A DNA stretch of 64,000 nt from Rhodohalobacter sulfatireducens (GTDB taxonomy: Bacteria; Bacteroidota; Rhodothermia; Balneolales; Balneolaceae), in contig NZ_JAKLWS010000015.1 of the NCBI RefSeq assembly GCF_022012475.1, positions 1-64,000 on the forward strand. The letters run 5' to 3'. The notes beneath the pieces were generated by a model. The model saw nothing but the letters and a program-made list of their open reading frames with translations, was not told the origin of the DNA and did not search any database. Made by a program: the position numbers and the translations under genes. Of this stretch, positions 1,229 to 59,117 are shown piece after piece (the first letter of the stretch is position 1; each line of letters begins with the position of its first letter).

Positions 1229-3043
1229 TTAAAATGGCCAGATAACCGGGGCAAGAAGAATTACAACAGTCCAGAGGATCAATTGCAGCGGGAATCCAAC
1301 TTTAAAGAAATCTGTAAACCGGTAGTTTCCCGGACCGTAAACCATCAGGTTGGTTTGATATCCAATCGGGCTGATAAGCGACATAGACGCCGCAAGAGTT
1401 ACTGCCACAAATATTCCTCTTGGATCGATATCCATTGATCCGGCTACCGACAATACAATCGGAAACATGATAGCCACAGCCCCGTTATTTGTGATTATCT
1501 CAGTTAAAAATGCAGTAACCAATACAATACCGGCAAGCAGCACCCAGTTGCCATACTCGCTCGTTAAATCAATCATCCAAAAGCCTATCAAATCTGCCGT
1601 ACCGCTTACCTCCATCGCTTTCCCTAAACCTAATGCAGCACCAATTACGATGAGAACGGTCCAGTCCACGGATTTTCTGGCTTCCCCTGGATCGATCACA
1701 TTAAATGCCAATAATACTGCCACACCTATTAAACCAGCCAAAGCAATATGAATGATGCCGACAGCTACACTTACAACAATTCCTAAAAGTACAGCTACTG
1801 AAACATAAAGAGACTTACCCTCCGGTCGTTCTTCCTTTACTTCTTCCTTGTTTTCTATCTCTTCACCGCCTGCCTCACTTGTGAGGAAAAAATCCTCCGT
1901 ATCTTCATAAGCACCCCGGAAGCCCCGTCCTGTATCCAGTAGTAGTACATCACCGGGTTGTACCACAAAATCTCCAAGGGCTTTATCAATTCGTTTTCCC
2001 CTTCTCCTTACACCTGTTACAGCCGCCCCAAATCGCTCAAGCAATCGCGCATTCTCCAGGGATGAACCTACCAGCCGGGACCCTTCTTTTACTACAATCT
2101 GGTGCAATTCTCGATCCTGTTTCTTTTCCCTTTTAATAATTCTCGGGGGCTGATATAATATCTGCAACCCGGGGTAATCACTTAGAGATGGCACCTTCGC
2201 TGCAATTCCACCCTCTGCTGCATACATTAAATGATCACCAACCCTGAACTTTTCGTTTGGGGGTACCGGTGCTATTTCACGATCATTTCTATTAAGCCTG
2301 GAAAGATAGAAACCCGGTAGTCTGGCCAAACCAGTCTCGCGAATTGTTTTCCCGACAATCTGTGCTTTATCAGTGACTTCAATTTCAACCAACAGCTCCC
2401 GCTTTCTCTCCTCCTCATAACGAATATCCCTTCGCGCCGGTGTTAGTATCGGAGATACAAAAACAAGGTAGGTCAAACCTACAGCGGCACATGGTAGTCC
2501 AAGCCAAGCCAATTCAAAAAACGAGTACCCTTCAAAACCATAATCTTGTAAAAGCCCATGAGCTATAAGGTTCGTACTGGTTCCGATAAGTGTACATAAC
2601 CCACCCAGTATCGCTGCATATGAGAGTGGAATTAATAATTTTGAGGCCGGAATCCGGTTCTTTTGAGACCAACTTCTGATTGCAGGAATTCCCATCGCTA
2701 CGACGGGCGTATTATTCAAAAAAGCAGAATAAACCGAAACACTCGGGCATAGCCTTATTAAAATTCTGCGAATTTTCTTTGATTTTCTCCCGAGGATAAA
2801 CTCACTGGCCCTGTCTAATGCCCCGCTTTCTCGCAATGCGGCAGCTATAACATAAAGGCTCCCAAGGGCAAGAAGTGTTGTATTGCCAAATCCCATGGCA
2901 GCTTCTTCTAAGCTCATTACTCCCGATACAGTAACAATTGCAACTGCAGTTAACAATACCGCATCAGGACTCCACAGATCTGAAGCAAGCGCAATAATGG
3001 TAAGTAACAAAACCCCAAAAACAATGATTTGATCTGGACTCAT
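1229..3043 (-). CDS. SLC13/DASS-family permease with two TrkA-C (RCK-C) domains
   Basis: A 604-residue inner-membrane transporter of the divalent anion:sodium symporter group (SLC13). The first membrane half covers residues 1-210, including NNTPVVAMGIPAI and GTSTNLIAHG. Two soluble TrkA-C domains follow at about 215-300 and 310-395. The second membrane half runs from about 415 to 604, with EIITNNGAVAIMFP. The repeated SNT/TNN-type motifs in each half are typical of the Na+ and substrate sites. Relatives carry sulfate, phosphate or dicarboxylates, and the substrate here is not readable. It lies near a SulP transporter on the same strand. Confidence 0.88.
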   Translation of the reverse strand: MSPDQIIVFGVLLLTIIALASDLWSPDAVLLTAVAIVTVSGVMSLEEAAMGFGNTTLLALGSLYVIAAALRESGALDRASEFILGRKSKKIRRILIRLCPSVSVYSAFLNNTPVVAMGIPAIRSWSQKNRIPASKLLIPLSYAAILGGLCTLIGTSTNLIAHGLLQDYGFEGYSFFELAWLGLPCAAVGLTYLVFVSPILTPARRDIRYEEERKRELLVEIEVTDKAQIVGKTIRETGLARLPGFYLSRLNRNDREIAPVPPNEKFRVGDHLMYAAEGGIAAKVPSLSDYPGLQILYQPPRIIKREKKQDRELHQIVVKEGSRLVGSSLENARLLERFGAAVTGVRRRGKRIDKALGDFVVQPGDVLLLDTGRGFRGAYEDTEDFFLTSEAGGEEIENKEEVKEERPEGKSLYVSVAVLLGIVVSVAVGIIHIALAGLIGVAVLLAFNVIDPGEARKSVDWTVLIVIGAALGLGKAMEVSGTADLIGFWMIDLTSEYGNWVLLAGIVLVTAFLTEIITNNGAVAIMFPIVLSVAGSMDIDPRGIFVAVTLAASMSLISPIGYQTNLMVYGPGNYRFTDFFKVGFPLQLILWTVVILLAPVIWPF

Positions 3044-3164
3044 TTTGGCGAATAAATTTTTTTACTTACAAATATCGATGAAGAATTCTGTGATACTTGA
3101 GATAACGACCAAATCAAAATAACATAAATGACAGTATATTTACTATGTTTTTATGGAAGTATGC

Positions 3165-3437
3165 TTATGCGTTTTTTTGTTGATTTTTAAATCGAAATGT
3201 AACAGGAATTTCCCCATCAGTTGGAGTTCCAATGTGATAGAGTTCCCATTCAGAATCGTAGTTTGTAATCCTGTCTCTTAAAATCCTTACCAAATCTTCA
3301 GAGCTTCCATTTTCGGAATCGAAATTAAACTTCTCCACACGAAATCTGAGTTTTCGATCTTCTCCGTTTACATGAACATCAAGATTTACAATTTTCTTTA
3401 CATTGGGCACAGTGAACTGAACGCGTACGTTATGCAT
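3165..3437 (-). CDS. Small hypothetical protein
   Basis: A 90-residue soluble protein that I do not recognise. It alternates basic beta-type segments (VRVQFTVPNVKKIVNLDVHV, LRFRVEKFNF, EIPVTFRFK) with one helix (SSEDLVRILRDRI). It has no signal peptide, membrane segment or cysteine. It lies between two transporter genes on the same strand, with about 120 and 170 nt gaps, so operon membership is uncertain. Codon use resembles the neighbours, which supports a real gene. Confidence 0.6.
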   Translation of the reverse strand: MHNVRVQFTVPNVKKIVNLDVHVNGEDRKLRFRVEKFNFDSENGSSEDLVRILRDRITNYDSEWELYHIGTPTDGEIPVTFRFKNQQKNA

Positions 3438-3609
3438 GATTTTAGGAGTTAGGTTTAATCAAAGGCATTGTAATGAATTTATTATCAAGAAATGTGCCAA
3501 ACAGTTCTATATGCCTCATTGAACAAGTTCTAATGATTTCTTCGGTCAATCCTGTACGAAAACATACGGTTCATGTCCGATATTGGACACTGAATATCTT
3601 CATAAAAGA

Positions 3610-5400
3610 TTACTCGCTAACGTCATTCATATAGTCTTTCAAACGATGAGGTTCTTCAAACAGATCAACCAACTCCGGGCTGTGCGAATCTTTTTCTTGC
3701 TGATCCCACTTCTCCAACAGATATTTTACAGCCAGATGTGTGCTCTCATGAAAGTGATTACCGCCCAGGCTACGTGCCAAACCCGAACGCATCAGTAGTT
3801 TTTGGACCGGTGTTTTCATCCCGGCAAAATGGAATTCTATATCCCAGTTTTGGAGAGTTTCCATTACAGATCGAAGAGCTTCAATGGCGGTTGTATCCAG
3901 GTCGTTGATACTCTTCGCGTCCACGATGACAGCACGGATTTTCTTATTTCTCTCTTCACTTTTGTGAATAATAAAATCTTTGATGAACTCTGCATTGTTG
4001 AAATTTATGGACGCATCAAACCGAAGTATGAGCACCTCTTCAATTGGAGAAGCCTGTGGATTTCGGGTCACATCCCGATAGGTCCTTGACCCTTGCACGT
4101 GACCTAAAACTGCAAGATTGGGCCTGCTTGAGCGATAAAGGACGAGGAAAAGAGATGCCCCGATTCCCATCAAAATTCCTTCCTGAATGCCGATAAGTAG
4201 TACACTTAAAAATGTAAAGATTGCGATGTACCCATCTTGAGGCTTAGTGCGGAAGAAGTATTTTAGTTCTTCCAAATTGATCAACGAAAGAGCGGCCAAA
4301 ATGATAATGGCAGAGAGACCCGCCAACGGAATGTAATAAAACAGGGGAGTTAAAAAGAGTAACGTTAAGCAGACAACAATTGCACAGATAACATTTGAAA
4401 GGGTAGTCCGGGTACCGGCCTGCTCGCTCACAACCGTTCGCGAAAAACTGCCTGAAATAGGCGGGCTTTGAAAAAAGCTCCCGATGAAGTTTGCCGCACC
4501 TATTGCAAAAAATTCACGGTTTGGGTTGATGGGATATTTGTATTTGTTGGCATAGGTCTTACCGAGAGAAATCACTGTCATAAGCTGGACCAATACCAAA
4601 GTTGTTATGGTGGGAATTAGCCTGCGCAAGTTGTCGAGAGTAAAACCCGGCAGTTCAAATGAAGGCAACCCCGATGGAATCACTCCAATCACTTCAATAC
4701 CATATTCCTGTAAATTTAACCACCAAACCATCACACCTCCTGCAACTAAAAGCACAAGTGCTCTCGGGAAAAGAGGATTCCATTTTTTTAGCAGATAGAG
4801 AATCATAAATCCAATCAACCCGATTCCCAATGCTGTAAAATTAACCATCTCAATCTTTTCGATAATCTGCATCGCTATGATGCCGATATATTGGGATCGT
4901 TCGAGATCAACACCAAGAATATTACCCAGCTGGCTGAATACAATGATGAGCGGTGCAGCGGCCGTAAAACCAAAAATGACAGGTTTTGAAAGGAGGTTCA
5001 CCAAAAATCCCATCCGCAACAGGGATAGTGCAATGTGAACCAGTCCCACAAACATGGTGAGCAGTAATACTACAGACACGTACTCCCCGGTTCCCGGTTC
5101 GGCGATCATTCCGGCACCGGACGCGATAATAATCATGTCAGTTGCTACAATCCCGAGTGAAAGATGGCGCGAAGTTCCGAATAGCGGATAGATCAAAAGC
5201 GGAATAAGTGATCCGTATAATCCGTAAATAGGCGATAAGCCGGCAATGACAGCGTAAGCCATAACCTGTGGGATTACAATCACACCAATTGTAAGCCCTG
5301 CTTTTGTGTCGGCGATAAACTCTTGTTTGGAGTATCTGTGAATCCAGGTTAGAATAGTAAATTTATTCCTGATCCAGGAAAGAATAGCCGTCAGGTCCAT
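3610..5400 (-). CDS. SulP-family anion transporter with STAS domain
   Basis: A 596-residue SLC26/SulP permease. Residues 1-430 form the multi-helix transport domain, which starts with the family pattern GLTIGVIVIPQVMAYAVIAG. A second family signature (QSPPISGSFSRTVVSEQAG) is near residue 310. A cytoplasmic STAS domain covers about 445-560 (VDAKSINDLDTTAIEAL). SulP proteins move sulfate, bicarbonate or other anions, often with Na+ or H+. Sulfate is possible given the sulfite-reduction genes 11 kb away, but no linkage is visible. The gene stands alone. Confidence 0.92.
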   Translation of the reverse strand: MDLTAILSWIRNKFTILTWIHRYSKQEFIADTKAGLTIGVIVIPQVMAYAVIAGLSPIYGLYGSLIPLLIYPLFGTSRHLSLGIVATDMIIIASGAGMIAEPGTGEYVSVVLLLTMFVGLVHIALSLLRMGFLVNLLSKPVIFGFTAAAPLIIVFSQLGNILGVDLERSQYIGIIAMQIIEKIEMVNFTALGIGLIGFMILYLLKKWNPLFPRALVLLVAGGVMVWWLNLQEYGIEVIGVIPSGLPSFELPGFTLDNLRRLIPTITTLVLVQLMTVISLGKTYANKYKYPINPNREFFAIGAANFIGSFFQSPPISGSFSRTVVSEQAGTRTTLSNVICAIVVCLTLLFLTPLFYYIPLAGLSAIIILAALSLINLEELKYFFRTKPQDGYIAIFTFLSVLLIGIQEGILMGIGASLFLVLYRSSRPNLAVLGHVQGSRTYRDVTRNPQASPIEEVLILRFDASINFNNAEFIKDFIIHKSEERNKKIRAVIVDAKSINDLDTTAIEALRSVMETLQNWDIEFHFAGMKTPVQKLLMRSGLARSLGGNHFHESTHLAVKYLLEKWDQQEKDSHSPELVDLFEEPHRLKDYMNDVSE

Positions 5401-16181: not shown

Positions 16182-16210
16182 TTGACATGAATTGATTTAG
16201 TGTTTAACCT
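16182..16210 (+). promoter_or_regulatory. Sigma-70-type promoter for the structured RNA
   Basis: A perfect TTGACA (16182-16187), a 17-bp spacer and TAACCT (16205-16210) put the start near 16217, about 40 nt before the outer helix of the folded RNA. Confidence 0.5.
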
Positions 16211-16254
16211 GAATTCACGTTAAAAACGACTTGATGTCTAACACAATTTTTTAA

Positions 16255-16365
16255 TGAATCAGCAAAACGGTTCCACAAACTTTTCCGCGACCGAGCACAA
16301 AAACATGTGCTGTATGATGTGTTGTAGAATGCCGCGAAAGGTAGTGGAAAAATTATGCTGATTTA
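16255..16365 (+). ncRNA. Unassigned rod-like structured RNA or leader
   Basis: Four nested helices form one rod. The outer helix TGAATCAGCA/TGCTGATTTA (16255-16264 with 16356-16365) has one wobble. Next come TTCCAC/GTGGAA (16271-16276 with 16344-16349), CTTTTC-c-GCG/CGCGAAAGG (16280-16289 with 16333-16341) with one bulged C, and the hairpin AGCACA/TGTGCT (16294-16299 with 16306-16311). A terminator follows at 16385. It does not show the conserved cores of the SAM-I, cobalamin, TPP or SRP RNAs. It may be an independent small RNA or an attenuating leader for the sulfur genes. Confidence 0.55.
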
Positions 16366-16384
16366 ATACAACGATCTTCATACA

Positions 16385-16417
16385 AAGCCCGCTACCGAAC
16401 AGGTGGTGGGCTTTTTT
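16385..16417 (+). terminator. Strong intrinsic terminator before the sulfur genes
   Basis: AAGCCCGCTACC pairs with GGTGGTGGGCTT over 12 bp (two wobbles) around the loop gaac/a, and T6 follows. It ends the structured RNA, or acts as an expression platform, about 90 nt before the rhodanese start. The region 15894-16181 shows no gene. Confidence 0.85.
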
Positions 16418-16506
16418 GTTTTAAAAACCTGTCTGCCTGTCTGGATGTTAGCTGGGCTTTGTGAGAATGAGCTTAAACACCAATCAAAAACACAAAGCAC
16501 AAAACA

Positions 16507-17349
16507 ATGCCAGATACACTAACACAAAAAAGAGTACTCGTAACTACCGATTGGGCAGCTGATCATCTAACCGATGAAGGCGTCCGTTTTGTAGAGGTCG
16601 ACGTAGACACTGAAGCCTATGATTCAGGACATATTCCGGGATCAGTCGGCTGGAACTGGAAGAAAGACCTCCAGGATCAACTCCGAAGAACCATCGCATC
16701 AAAAGAGGATTTTGAAAAACTGCTTCAAAAATCCGGAATTGATGAAGATACCACGGTTGTCTTGTATGGTGACAACAACAACTGGTTTGCCGCTTGGGCT
16801 TACTGGTTGCTTAAATACTATGGCTTCGATGATGTTCGCATTCTCGATGGCGGGCGCAAAAAGTGGGAAGCTGAAGGGCGTGAACTCACTACAGATCTCC
16901 CCAAATACGACTCCACCGATTACACAGTAGGTGATGTAAAAGGTGAATACCGTGCTTTCCGGGATGATATAAAAGAACGACTCAATTCTGATGACTTCGG
17001 ACTCGTTGATGTTCGCTCTCCGGATGAGTTCACAGGAAAAATCCTGGCTCCTCCCGGACTCGATGAACTGTCTCAGCGTGCCGGCCACATCCCCGGAGCG
17101 TCTAACATTCCATGGTCGAAAGCCGTGAATGAAGACGGAACCTTCAAAAGCAAAGAAGAGCTCACCAAAATCTATGCGGACGAAGGAATTACACCTGATA
17201 AAGAGATTATCGCTTACTGCCGAATCGGGGAGCGGTCAGCGCACTCCTGGTTTGTCCTGAACGAGCTGCTAGAATTCCCAACTGTGCGGAATTACGACGG
17301 TTCATGGACAGAGTGGGGGAACCTGATTGATGCTCCAATCGAACGGTGA
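16507..17349 (+). CDS. Two-domain sulfurtransferase (rhodanese family)
   Basis: A 280-residue tandem rhodanese. The N-terminal domain (about 15-130) is the inactive type, and the C-terminal domain (about 150-275) carries the active-site loop CRIGER with Cys238. CRxGxR is the loop of thiosulfate:cyanide sulfurtransferases (SseA-type mercaptopyruvate enzymes have a different loop). The enzyme moves a sulfane sulfur from thiosulfate to an acceptor such as cyanide or a thiol, in the cytoplasm. It heads a plus-strand run of sulfite-reduction and siroheme genes, which fits a role in sulfur assimilation. A long hairpin follows the gene. Confidence 0.92.
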   Translation: MPDTLTQKRVLVTTDWAADHLTDEGVRFVEVDVDTEAYDSGHIPGSVGWNWKKDLQDQLRRTIASKEDFEKLLQKSGIDEDTTVVLYGDNNNWFAAWAYWLLKYYGFDDVRILDGGRKKWEAEGRELTTDLPKYDSTDYTVGDVKGEYRAFRDDIKERLNSDDFGLVDVRSPDEFTGKILAPPGLDELSQRAGHIPGASNIPWSKAVNEDGTFKSKEELTKIYADEGITPDKEIIAYCRIGERSAHSWFVLNELLEFPTVRNYDGSWTEWGNLIDAPIER

Positions 17350-17472: not shown

Positions 17473-19155
17473 ATGAGCAGTAAGAAAAAGAAAAGTAAAC
17501 TCGAAAAAATAAAAGAAGGCAGTGAGTACCTTCGCGGTCCATTGGATGTTGAGGTCACCAATGATGAAGATCATTTTAGCAAAGATGCCATCCAGGTATT
17601 GAAATTTCACGGTACCTATCAACAGGATGACCGCGATAAACGACAAGGCAGAGACCGCCATTATATGTTTATGATTCGCAGCAGAACTCCGGCAGGAAAA
17701 CTCACACCGGATCAATACCTGGCTGTGGATGATATCTCGAATGAGTACGCTGACGGAACCATTCGCGTGACGACACGGCAAGCTTTTCAGCTTCATGGAA
17801 TTATCAAATCAGAGCTCAAGAAAACCATCAAAGAAATTAATGACTCTCTGATTACAACTCTCGGTGCCTGCGGTGATATTGTTCGAAATGTGATGGCCAC
17901 ACCTGCTCCCGATATTGATGGACGGCAAGCCAAAGTTCAGGATTTTGCGGATGAACTGTCGGATATTCTGCTCCCCGCTACGAATGCCTATCATGAAATT
18001 TGGCTGGATGGCGAAAAAGTCTATTCCGGCAAAGAGGAAGTGACAAATGGCACCACCGAGCCGTTGTACAGCAGCAGTTATCTTCCACGGAAATTCAAAG
18101 TTGGAATTGCTCTTCCCGGCGATAACAGTGTAGATCTATACACACAGGATATTGGCCTGGTTGCTATTTTTGATGATGAGAATGAGATCATAGGATTTAA
18201 TGTCGTTGTTGGCGGCGGCATGGGGATGCACCATCGCAAGCCGGAAACGTTCCCACGATTGGGAGATCACCTCGGGTATATCACCAAAGACAAAGTGGTG
18301 GAAGTGGTAAAGGGAATCATCGGCATTCAGCGCGATTACGGAAACCGCGAAAACCGAAAACAGGCCCGGATGAAATACCTGATCCATGATTGGGGACTCG
18401 ACAAATTCAGAAGCGAATTGATCGACCGAATCGGGTATGATCTCGAAGAATTTCGGGAAATCCCTAAGTTTGAACTGGAGCTCTACTTGGGATGGCACCA
18501 ACAGTCCGACGGAAATTGGTTTCTCGGCGTCTCTGTAGAAAACGGCCGCATTAAAGATGAAAGAGATCTGAAACTGAAAACCGCCCTTCGAAAAGTTGTG
18601 AAGGAGTTCAGAACGGAAGTTCGCATGACCCCGAATCACAATGTTCTGCTCACAGACATACCTGAAGATCAAAAAGAACCGATTGAACAGGCCTTCAGAG
18701 ATCATGGAGTGGCCTTGGCCGATGAAATTCCAAACGCCATCAAATTTTCGATGGCCTGCCCTGCCCTTCCAACTTGCGGACTTGCCATTACGGAGTCAGA
18801 GCGAGCTTTACCTGCTGTCATTCGGGATCTGAATGATGTACTTGAAAAACTTGAACTGCAAGATGAAAAACTCTCTGTACGGATGACCGGCTGCCCCAAC
18901 GGATGCTCGCGTCCCTACGTAGCTGACATCGGTTTTGTGGGCCGATCCCTCGATAAATACAGCATTTTTATCGGCGGTGATCCGTCAGGTACAAGGCTCA
19001 ACAAAGAGTATAAAGACATGGTACCGCGAGAAGAACTGGTGCAGGAAGTGCGTCCTCTGCTTGAACAGTTTAAGAATGAACGCACAGATAACGAATCCTT
19101 TAGTGATTTCTGGAACCGAGTTGGAATACAAAATCCTGAAGAGGTACCGGCTTAG
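17473..19155 (+). CDS. sir: Siroheme [4Fe-4S] sulfite (or nitrite) reductase
   Basis: A 560-residue single-chain hemoprotein. Two repeats of the sulfite/nitrite reductase ferredoxin-like and catalytic domains are visible. The siroheme/[4Fe-4S] ligands are in CPALPTCG (near residue 435) and GCPNGCSRP (near 475). The family reduces sulfite to sulfide, or nitrite to ammonia, by six electrons. Sulfite is favoured because an APS reductase and siroheme-synthesis genes follow. No CysJ-type flavoprotein is in the window, so the electron donor (ferredoxin or a distant CysJ) is unknown. The gene ends 3 nt before cobA. Confidence 0.93.
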   Translation: MSSKKKKSKLEKIKEGSEYLRGPLDVEVTNDEDHFSKDAIQVLKFHGTYQQDDRDKRQGRDRHYMFMIRSRTPAGKLTPDQYLAVDDISNEYADGTIRVTTRQAFQLHGIIKSELKKTIKEINDSLITTLGACGDIVRNVMATPAPDIDGRQAKVQDFADELSDILLPATNAYHEIWLDGEKVYSGKEEVTNGTTEPLYSSSYLPRKFKVGIALPGDNSVDLYTQDIGLVAIFDDENEIIGFNVVVGGGMGMHHRKPETFPRLGDHLGYITKDKVVEVVKGIIGIQRDYGNRENRKQARMKYLIHDWGLDKFRSELIDRIGYDLEEFREIPKFELELYLGWHQQSDGNWFLGVSVENGRIKDERDLKLKTALRKVVKEFRTEVRMTPNHNVLLTDIPEDQKEPIEQAFRDHGVALADEIPNAIKFSMACPALPTCGLAITESERALPAVIRDLNDVLEKLELQDEKLSVRMTGCPNGCSRPYVADIGFVGRSLDKYSIFIGGDPSGTRLNKEYKDMVPREELVQEVRPLLEQFKNERTDNESFSDFWNRVGIQNPEEVPA

Positions 19156-19158
19156 ATT

Positions 19159-19962
19159 ATGAACACACTCAAACATTTAGAAAAAGGAAAGGTGTACCTG
19201 GTTGGTGCCGGCCCCGGCGATCCAGACCTTATAACAATGAAAGGATCGAAAGTTCTGGAATTGGCGGATGTCATCGTTTATGACCGACTGGCCAATCCGG
19301 AACTTCTGGGGCTTACCGGGGAAGATTCTGAACATATTTATGTGGGTAAAAGCCCGAATAAACCCTCTGTATCCCAGAAACAGATCAACCAGATTTTGGT
19401 ATCGAAAGCGCTGAGTGGCAAACATGTGGCCCGGCTTAAAGGCGGCGACCCGTTTGTATTCGGACGCGGCGGTGAGGAATGCGAAGAGTTGCGAGCCAAC
19501 AGCGTTCCTTATGAAGTGATTCCGGGCATCAGTAGTGCATTGGCAGCTCCGGCTTTCGCAGGCATTCCGGTTACGCATCGTAAAGCAGCCCGTTCATTTA
19601 CCGTTGTTACGGGGCATACGATTAAAGGAACCGACGATTTTGAAAACTGGTGCCATCTCGTTCATGCAGATACGCTGGTTGTGCTGATGGGCGTCAGAAA
19701 TTTGCCAAATATTTCAGAGACTTTGATCGAACTTGGAAAGAGCCCCGACACCCCGGCAGCCGTTGTTGAAAGGGCAACCTTTGAGTCACAAAAAGTAGCT
19801 GTTGGAACATTGTCGAATATTGCCGAAAAAGCTTCACATTTGTCGCCCCCGGCTACCATTGTGATTGGGGAACTTGCTGCTATGAGTCACGATTTAGCTT
19901 GGTTCAACACCGAAAAAGTGCGAGCGGACATCGATGTTCAACATCAATTATTAGCTATTTAA
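19159..19962 (+). CDS. cobA: Uroporphyrinogen-III C-methyltransferase (SUMT)
   Basis: A 267-residue SAM-dependent methyltransferase. It has the family landmarks VYLVGAGPGDPDLIT (residues 12-26), VIVYDRLA, ARLKGGDPFVFGRGGEE near 93 and VIPGISSALAAPAFAGIPVTHR near 120. It doubly methylates uroporphyrinogen III to precorrin-2, the first step of siroheme synthesis. It starts 3 nt after the sulfite reductase stop and must be translated from the same mRNA. Together with the Met8-like gene at 21019 it makes the siroheme the reductase needs. Confidence 0.96.
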   Translation: MNTLKHLEKGKVYLVGAGPGDPDLITMKGSKVLELADVIVYDRLANPELLGLTGEDSEHIYVGKSPNKPSVSQKQINQILVSKALSGKHVARLKGGDPFVFGRGGEECEELRANSVPYEVIPGISSALAAPAFAGIPVTHRKAARSFTVVTGHTIKGTDDFENWCHLVHADTLVVLMGVRNLPNISETLIELGKSPDTPAAVVERATFESQKVAVGTLSNIAEKASHLSPPATIVIGELAAMSHDLAWFNTEKVRADIDVQHQLLAI

Positions 19963-20060: not shown

Positions 20061-20813
20061 ATGCAGGACGTTCTCGAACCAATTTTGAAAACAGATAAAT
20101 TCTCCTCAACAGAACTCAACCAGCTTAATCAACAATTTGAAACTACTGATCCCGGCGAAATACTTTCGTGGGTATATGAAACTTTTGGCACAGAGATGGT
20201 TCTCGGCACCGGGTTTGGTTCATCGGGTGTTTTCCTGATTCATCAGTTGCAAACGTACGGTATTGATATCCCGGTTTTTTATCTCGATACGAATCTCTTG
20301 TTTGATTCTACATACGAGTTAAAAGACAGAATTGAAGCTCGTTACAATATTGATATTACTAGAGTTACCCCTGAACTATCTTTGAAAAAACAAGCTGATC
20401 GATTTGGTGATGAACTCTGGAAGAGAAATCCTAATCAATGCTGCTTTTACAGGAAGGTGCTTCCGCTTCGGAACTATCTTTCTGATAAAAAAGCGTGGGT
20501 GACCGGAATCCGCCGAAGTCAATCGGACACAAGAAACCAGGTTCGAATTGTGGATTGGGATGAAGAGAATGATGTAATTAAAATCAACCCGGTGGCCCAT
20601 TGGTCAGGTAAAAAAATTTGGGATGAAATTCACCGACATAATTTGCCTTATAACCCGATGCACGATGAAGGATATCCGAGTATCGGATGTATACCATGCA
20701 CTCAACCGGTCAACGCCTCCAAGGAAAGCGACGACCGAAACGGCCGCTGGAATGGTACGGACAAAACAGAGTGCGGAATTCATTTTCCCGAGCATTATAA
20801 GAATGGGAGTTGA
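20061..20813 (+). CDS. cysH: Adenylyl-sulfate (APS) reductase, CysH family
   Basis: A 250-residue thioredoxin-dependent reductase in the PAPS/APS reductase fold. The catalytic cysteine is in the C-terminal KTECGIHF (near 235). Unlike E. coli-type PAPS reductases it has an iron-sulfur cysteine set, CC (NQCCFYRK, near 131) and CxxC (GCIPC, near 216). Known members with both pairs bind a [4Fe-4S] cluster and prefer APS. So it probably reduces APS to sulfite, which the neighbouring sulfite reductase uses. No ATP sulfurylase (CysD/N or Sat) is in the window. Confidence 0.93.
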   Translation: MQDVLEPILKTDKFSSTELNQLNQQFETTDPGEILSWVYETFGTEMVLGTGFGSSGVFLIHQLQTYGIDIPVFYLDTNLLFDSTYELKDRIEARYNIDITRVTPELSLKKQADRFGDELWKRNPNQCCFYRKVLPLRNYLSDKKAWVTGIRRSQSDTRNQVRIVDWDEENDVIKINPVAHWSGKKIWDEIHRHNLPYNPMHDEGYPSIGCIPCTQPVNASKESDDRNGRWNGTDKTECGIHFPEHYKNGS

Positions 20814-21018: not shown

Positions 21019-21702
21019 ATGTCAAAAGCATTAGATGTCTACCCAATTTACCTTCGCCGATTAAAAGAACGGAAAACCGTCATCGTAGGTGGGGACTGGG
21101 AAGCTGAAGGTAAGGTGAAAGATTTTCTGGATCGGGGGGCCTGGCTGACGGTTATCAGTCCGGAATTGAATGAGCAACTGCAGGAGTGGGCGGATGAAGG
21201 ACGTTTTGAATGGATTCCCCGTCAATATCAATATGGAGATTTTGAAGGTGCTTCGGTTGCTATCGTCGCTGAATTCGAAGGTGATATCAATAAAATAGCT
21301 TACAAAGAAGCCAAAGAGCGAAATATACTCATCAATGTGATGGACGACCTTCCCCATGCTAATTTTGCATTTGGGTCAATCGTAAAACAAGGTCCGCTGA
21401 CGATCTCCATATCTACAGGCGGAGCTGCTCCGGCCTTAGCTGTTCGGCTTCGTCAGCGATTCGAAAAGGAGTTCGGAACAGAATACGGCGAATTCCTTGA
21501 GTTCATGCAGAGCCTCCGGAAACCGATGAAGAAACACATCGACGAATTCGATACTCGCAAGAAACTTTGGTATGAGCTGATCGATTCAGAGATTCTTACC
21601 CTTTTCCGCGAAAGGAAAGTTGATGAAGCTTACAAACGAGCAAAGAAAATTTTGGGTGATGAACTTGTAGATGATGCTTTGGGAGTTGAAACTGCGGATT
21701 AG
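21019..21702 (+). CDS. Precorrin-2 dehydrogenase / sirohydrochlorin ferrochelatase (Met8/CysG-N type)
   Basis: A 227-residue bifunctional siroheme-synthase N-terminal type protein. The N-terminal NAD-binding part (VIVGGDWEAEGKVKDFLDRG, residues 21-40) is followed by a dimerisation and ferrochelatase portion with TISISTGGAAPALAVRLRQ near 130. It oxidises precorrin-2 with NAD+ to sirohydrochlorin and may insert Fe2+ to give siroheme. With cobA it completes the siroheme branch. About 200 nt of repeats separate it from cysH, so it may have its own promoter. Confidence 0.92.
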   Translation: MSKALDVYPIYLRRLKERKTVIVGGDWEAEGKVKDFLDRGAWLTVISPELNEQLQEWADEGRFEWIPRQYQYGDFEGASVAIVAEFEGDINKIAYKEAKERNILINVMDDLPHANFAFGSIVKQGPLTISISTGGAAPALAVRLRQRFEKEFGTEYGEFLEFMQSLRKPMKKHIDEFDTRKKLWYELIDSEILTLFRERKVDEAYKRAKKILGDELVDDALGVETAD

Positions 21703-59005: not shown

Positions 59006-59010
59006 AAACT

Positions 59011-59117
59011 CCCCCTTCGAAGGGGGAAAGAATCGACGACGTTGATTCAGGGGGATGACTCTCTTAGCCTTAATTCGGTTTGTAAATAGTTATTCGTTAA
59101 AAATTTTGTCATCCCCC
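59011..59117. repeat. CCCCCTTNGAAGGGGG repeat, copy 2
   Basis: CCCCCTTCGAAGGGGG (59011-59026), AATCGAC-gac-GTTGATT, AGGGGGATGAC and its complement GTCATCCCCC (59108-59117). The order and spacing are the same as in 20818-20922. Confidence 0.75.

Follow-up and report, generated by a model that had tools for sequence, protein, structure and literature searches.

In the trp attenuator of E. coli, a leader peptide with codons for the product amino acid is combined with alternative helices, 1:2, 2:3 and 3:4. In Rhodobacterales, the uORFC-8-2 motif, which occurs exclusively upstream of cysS, joins a short ORF with tandem Cys codons to an intrinsic terminator, and attenuation by Cys-tRNA has been proposed for it (PMC8632094). 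The cys operons of actinobacteria carry leader ORFs with runs of Cys codons, without conserved terminator hairpins (PMC1262725), and leaderless poly-Cys ORFs with cysteine-responsive attenuation have been described in mycobacteria (Canestrari et al. 2020, as cited in PMC13236596). The leader peptide CruR, which heads copper operons, senses copper via a conserved CXXC, and involves an RAPP arrest motif and Rho-dependent termination (PMC9426467). The open literature yielded no report of such a system for Balneolales or of Cys leaders before sulfite reductase operons, which is weak evidence, as subscription papers were mostly outside this search.

We analysed a 64,000-nucleotide stretch of Rhodohalobacter sulfatireducens DNA (contig NZ_JAKLWS010000015.1, positions 1 to 64,000), referred to below as the window. 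A first-pass annotation had proposed that an unassigned structured RNA in it was either a new small RNA or a leader controlling sulfite and siroheme genes. The second proposal is supported and the first is not, since the element consists of a leader ORF, an antiterminator and a terminator at the head of sulfur operons. Positions 16182-16419 very probably constitute a ribosome-mediated leader-peptide transcription attenuator of the sulfate-assimilation operon, with cysteine as a signal. The genes downstream are the following.

16507..17349, plus strand: rhodanese (sulfurtransferase), first gene of the operon (Pfam PF00581, E 7e-39)
17473..19155, plus strand: siroheme sulfite/nitrite reductase (Pfam PF01077, PF03460)
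19159..19962, plus strand: tetrapyrrole methylase (Pfam PF00590), probably uroporphyrinogen-III methyltransferase of siroheme synthesis, the exact function being taken from context
20061..20813, plus strand: PAPS/APS reductase, cysH (Pfam PF01507)
21019..21702, plus strand: siroheme synthase, met8/cysG-type dehydrogenase (Pfam PF13241, PF14824, PF10414)

Judged by their domains, these genes encode the route from activated sulfate to sulfide, plus the cofactor. At a distance of 11 kb from the operon, an SLC13-type (sulfate/dicarboxylate-like) permease adjoins a SulP-type transporter (1229-5400, minus strand; names from sequence resemblance), and no Cys leader was found before either gene. The parts of the element itself are as follows.

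16182..16210, plus strand: probable promoter, inferred from sequence (TTGACA 16182-16187, 17-nt spacer, TAACCT 16205-16210)
16254..16361, plus strand: leader peptide ORF from ATG 16254 to TGA 16361, 35 codons, MNQQNGSTNFSATEHKNMCCMMCCRMPRKVVEKLC, identified from sequence and from counterparts in relatives
16271..16289, plus strand: segment 1, 5' side of the rod, pairing with segment 2 in the untranslated leader (MFE fold)
16308..16325, plus strand: control codons TGC TGT ATG ATG TGT TGT (Cys-Cys-Met-Met-Cys-Cys), read from sequence
16340..16347, plus strand: segment 2, GGTAGTGG, antiterminator strand within the leader ORF (pairing and covariation with segment 3)
16384..16396, plus strand: segment 3, 5' arm of the terminator, of which 16389-16396 (CCGCTACC) also pairs with segment 2 (pairing and covariation)
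16402..16414, plus strand: segment 4, 3' arm of the terminator, followed by a T tract (pairing and covariation, 21 loci)

The structural observations of the first-pass annotation were borne out. The perfect TTGACA is present, and several relatives have layouts with a TTGA box, 17 nt and TA...T about as far from their leader ATG; the putative TTGACA/TAACCT promoter of the window is absent from the list produced by a consensus promoter scan. Transcription is expected to start near 16217, to judge from these boxes. The stretch 16250-16370 folds into a rod of -38.4 kcal/mol (z = -5.0; 0 of 200 shuffles equally good), whose 10-bp closing helix pairs 16255-16264 with 16356-16365. Besides the window, only the two relatives nearest to it show the closing helix in this sequence form, and an equivalent rod, with segment 2 paired upstream, is the MFE fold in all 21 loci compared (mean z -3.1). 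The strong terminator reported about 90 nt before the rhodanese gene lies at 16384-16414, with 13 pairs, 7 of them GC, a T tract and then 92 nt to the rhodanese ATG at 16507. No common riboswitch or SRP RNA had been recognised, and a search of the element against Rfam 15 (SAM, cobalamin, TPP, SRP, 6S and others) gave no family at the gathering threshold and nothing relevant at E<=10, the weak matches being far below threshold; the best of these by bits was trpB (24.2 of the 59 bits needed), a match that rests mainly on the terminator.

Elsewhere in the window, just past a serC-like gene, 59007-59059 (plus strand) matches the Rfam family whalefall-1 (RF01762), listed as an sRNA. Of 89 genomes in the window's family, 36 contain it, with a maximum of 54 copies in one genome. 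The copies often form plus/minus pairs about 30 nt apart, and the element looks like a dispersed palindromic repeat (REP/BIME or MITE type) and not like an sRNA.

The apparent non-coding rod overlaps the leader ORF, which also contains segment 2. This ORF is rich in codons of an amino acid to whose synthesis its own operon contributes: Cys occupies 5 of its 35 codons (19, 20, 23, 24 and 35), four of them in two tandem pairs. On both strands of the 64-kb window, no other ORF of up to 60 codons combines at least three Cys with an adjoining terminator, and the CCMMCC pattern has a single match in the genome. Other Cys runs in this genome were discarded, as many resemble antisense poly-Gln tracts and no terminator accompanies any of those inspected; matches to a CC..CC pattern elsewhere in the family (L111, L112, L113, L115, L116, L120) look like chance. 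Since an ORF of 20-60 codons with at least five Cys also arose in 271 of 20,000 order-1 random sequences (about 1.4%), it is the comparative evidence, and not the window alone, that carries the case.

We searched for the rhodanese protein in 128 genomes of the order and inspected the 500 nt upstream for Cys leaders. A Cys/Met leader ORF, 30-39 codons long and containing 4-7 Cys, was present at the same place in all 20 rhodanese-carrying genomes of the window's family and in one genome of another family (G123); a further member of the window's family, matched by the reductase alone (G017), likewise has a Cys leader ORF. The peptides diverge between genomes, as in Gracilimonas mengyeensis (L031, MKTQNYIQTTTAATEQAMNCCCMCMCMMCNTPTVVDVMC), except for the Cys/Met cluster, which takes forms such as CCMMCC, MCMCCCM and CCCMCMCMMC. 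Together, the leaders of the 21 loci hold 122 Cys and 115 Met among 739 non-start codons, against backgrounds of 0.55% and 2.1%, respectively. Within the Cys clusters, Met makes up 64 of the 104 non-Cys residues (background 2.1%), an enrichment whose binomial P is not independent evidence because the loci share kinship. Leaders were not detected ahead of the G031 rhodanese or in the Salinibacter and Salinivenus relatives examined, and the cysD loci of the window's family showed none within the flanks fetched. One genome (G055) carries a second rhodanese copy (C43:151675-152505, L150), which lies some 4.6 kb upstream of the copy with the attenuator and for which no Cys leader was found.

A direct DNA search with the element matched close relatives alone, a limit set by its fast evolution. 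The pattern of segments 2 and 3 was sought in 244 genomes of the class. Beyond the rhodanese loci, it revealed the device in a second family of the order, at the head of operons that begin with an SLC13-type transporter and, where read further, go on to cysD, cysN and rhodanese, and also before SUMT/cysH (gene names from sequence resemblance). In three genomes of this family, the divergent neighbour operon has a leader of two clustered Cys before sulfite reductase (MSMCCM, MPMCCM, MMCCM). In these genomes (L258, L259 and L260, from G119, G114 and G037) the sulfate genes form two divergent operons, both of them headed by a separate Cys-leader attenuator, and segment 2 of the sulfite reductase leader reads GGTGGTGG. 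Many other matches to the pattern occur in other contexts, have no Cys leader and look like chance.

The arrangement of a trp-type switch is predicted in 21 of 21 loci: three mutually exclusive helices, with 1:2 as the rod, 2:3 as the antiterminator and 3:4 as the terminator. The intrinsic terminator lies between the leader ORF and the first gene, and the exclusive antiterminator lies 3' of the control codons. Segment 2 is 8 nt long throughout, being GGTAGTGG or one of the variants GATAGCGG, GATAGTGG, GGCAGTGG, GGTAGGGG and GGTTGTGG; it resembles the 3' arm of the terminator, so that it can pair with the 5' arm in its place. It begins 9-18 nt past the last Cys codon, and the terminator starts 19-30 nt past the leader stop codon, in every locus. 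When the conservation and covariation of the helices were checked, as the first-pass annotation had recommended, both antiterminator and terminator proved 98-99% paired over the 21 loci, with two-sided changes in each. The 2:3 helix has 98.8% standard pairs and two-sided change in three pairs, its covariation score exceeds all of 500 shuffles, and shifting the alignment by one to three columns lowers the pairing to 25-59%; the 3:4 helix is 98.2% paired, with two-sided change in four pairs. Apart from the Cys/Met codons, segment 2 and the terminator, the sequence of the aligned leaders is not conserved. The reading frame across segment 2 varies by locus, AAG GTA GTG GAA in the window versus AAA GGT AGT GGA in G019, while its nucleotides are retained, so that selection there acts on the RNA.

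The 2:3 hairpin is the MFE structure of the stretch from segment 2 to segment 3 in 21 of 21 loci. The protector helix is predicted equally widely, as all 21 MFE folds pair 5-8 of the 8 bases of segment 2 with upstream RNA, but the best single 1:2 complementarity is often no better than in shuffled sequence and is weak in several loci. RNAalifold recovered the terminator alone from the alignment, as the three helices share strands. When the window was modelled without a ribosome, the rod and the terminator formed; with a ribosome at the Cys codons, the 2:3 hairpin formed (-16.8 kcal/mol before segment 4 exists); and with a ribosome at the stop codon, the terminator formed. Once segment 4 has been made, the terminator exceeds 2:3 in stability, so that antitermination would have to be decided kinetically, which is the general view for trp. 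Most of segment 1 precedes the Cys codons, so that a ribosome stalled on these would cover it only in part, and in G016 and G019, where the stop codon is 22 nt past segment 2, a ribosome at the stop may leave segment 2 uncovered.

We infer that the leader is translated and that ribosomes stall on it, and likewise the signal and the direction of the response, as follows. RNA polymerase would start near 16217 and a ribosome would translate the 35-codon leader. With charged Cys-tRNA (and possibly Met-tRNA) at hand, the ribosome would reach the stop codon and cover segment 2, 3:4 would form and the transcript would end near 16417. When cysteine is short, the ribosome would stall in CCMMCC and the free segment 2 would pair with the emerging segment 3; the 2:3 helix would then block the terminator, and the polymerase would go on to transcribe the genes for rhodanese, sulfite reductase and siroheme as well as cysH. 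In an untranslated leader, segment 2 would be held in the rod and the terminator would form. One might speculate that the interleaved Cys and Met codons make the leader a dual sensor, stalling the ribosome on shortage of either charged tRNA, a tentative idea towards which we lean slightly less than away. If it were true, one type of attenuator would report the total supply of reduced sulfur and govern transport, cysDN, cysH, sulfite reductase and siroheme genes across Balneolales.

Attenuation is in use in this lineage, as indicated by trpE, before which a WWW leader peptide and then an intrinsic terminator stand in 4 of the 4 genomes tested, that of the window included (example MKKSSMHNNWWWHGQTNLAVESL; own genome L303:699-770; L300, L301 and L302 alike). 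These are apparently Trp attenuators of the same type. Upstream of hisG in G012 (L313:1180-1254, minus strand of the locus), MTFKLHISHHLGHHHHGSHEHVVH has ten His in 24 codons and is probably a His leader peptide; a simple scan found no terminator there.

Another reading keeps the attenuator and changes the signal: the nascent Cys/Met peptide would bind a metal, for instance Cu(I), or sense sulfide or redox state, as a CruR-like uORF. The Cys/Met clusters do resemble metal ligands, and the nascent CXXC peptide of Bordetella CruR senses copper and acts via termination (PMC9426467). We nevertheless regard this as improbable, because ligand spacing is not fixed, the clusters varying with only their codon content kept, because the genes belong to sulfur assimilation and not to metal handling, and because a trp-type antiterminator/terminator pair is present. 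It is very improbable that the element is an independent small RNA, acting by base pairing or by protein binding, which has a terminator of its own and only happens to precede the operon: such an RNA would suit the promoter-like boxes, the stable rod and the strong terminator, and attenuated leaders are reported to act in trans elsewhere (Sinorhizobium peTrpL, as outlined in PMC7298713), but the homologues with Cys leader and terminator head sulfur operons in the same orientation, Rfam has no match, and attenuation in cis explains all the conserved features. Least credible of all is a metabolite riboswitch with the rod as its aptamer (for SAM, cysteine, sulfide or siroheme, say), for which the position, the terminator and pathway genes with good ligands would be apt, but which has neither an Rfam match nor a conserved aptamer-like core, RNAalifold giving only the terminator and the rod being conserved only as segment 2 pairing with whatever is upstream.

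With a cysteine-responsive attenuator as the preferred reading, an unannotated leader gains a mechanism and a likely signal, peptide-leader attenuation gains a lineage and a pathway, and the model predicts how Balneolales switch sulfate assimilation. More generally, what seems to be a structured non-coding RNA can turn out to be a small gene.

Among the known systems, the trp-type attenuators share with this element the leader peptide with product codons and the helices 1:2, 2:3 and 3:4; the codons here are Cys/Met and not Trp, segment 1 lies mostly upstream of the control codons, and the sequence is unrelated. Like CruR, the element has a Cys-containing uORF that is proposed to govern downstream transcription via ribosome behaviour, but the leaders listed here have neither RAPP nor fixed Cys spacing, and the CruR-type motif is lacking. 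With the poly-cysteine leaders of actinobacteria and mycobacteria it shares a Cys-run leader ORF before sulfur genes and, presumably, a response to cysteine; those of actinobacteria are without conserved terminator hairpins and those of mycobacteria, as far as the citing paper describes them, are leaderless ORFs, whereas here an intrinsic terminator and an antiterminator are present. With uORFC-8-2 it shares the short ORF with tandem Cys codons, the intrinsic terminator and the proposed ribosome-mediated attenuation by Cys-tRNA shortage. That motif belongs to another phylum and to a cysteinyl-tRNA synthetase gene, with two Cys codons at about 14-15, whereas the present element heads a rhodanese/sulfite reductase operon in Balneolales, with 4-7 Cys mixed with Met and a covarying antiterminator; it works like uORFC-8-2 but is not a member, differing from it in both position and Cys codons. 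Cysteine attenuation is already known in kind, and what is distinctive here is the Cys and Met composition of the leader and the pathway-wide use of the device.
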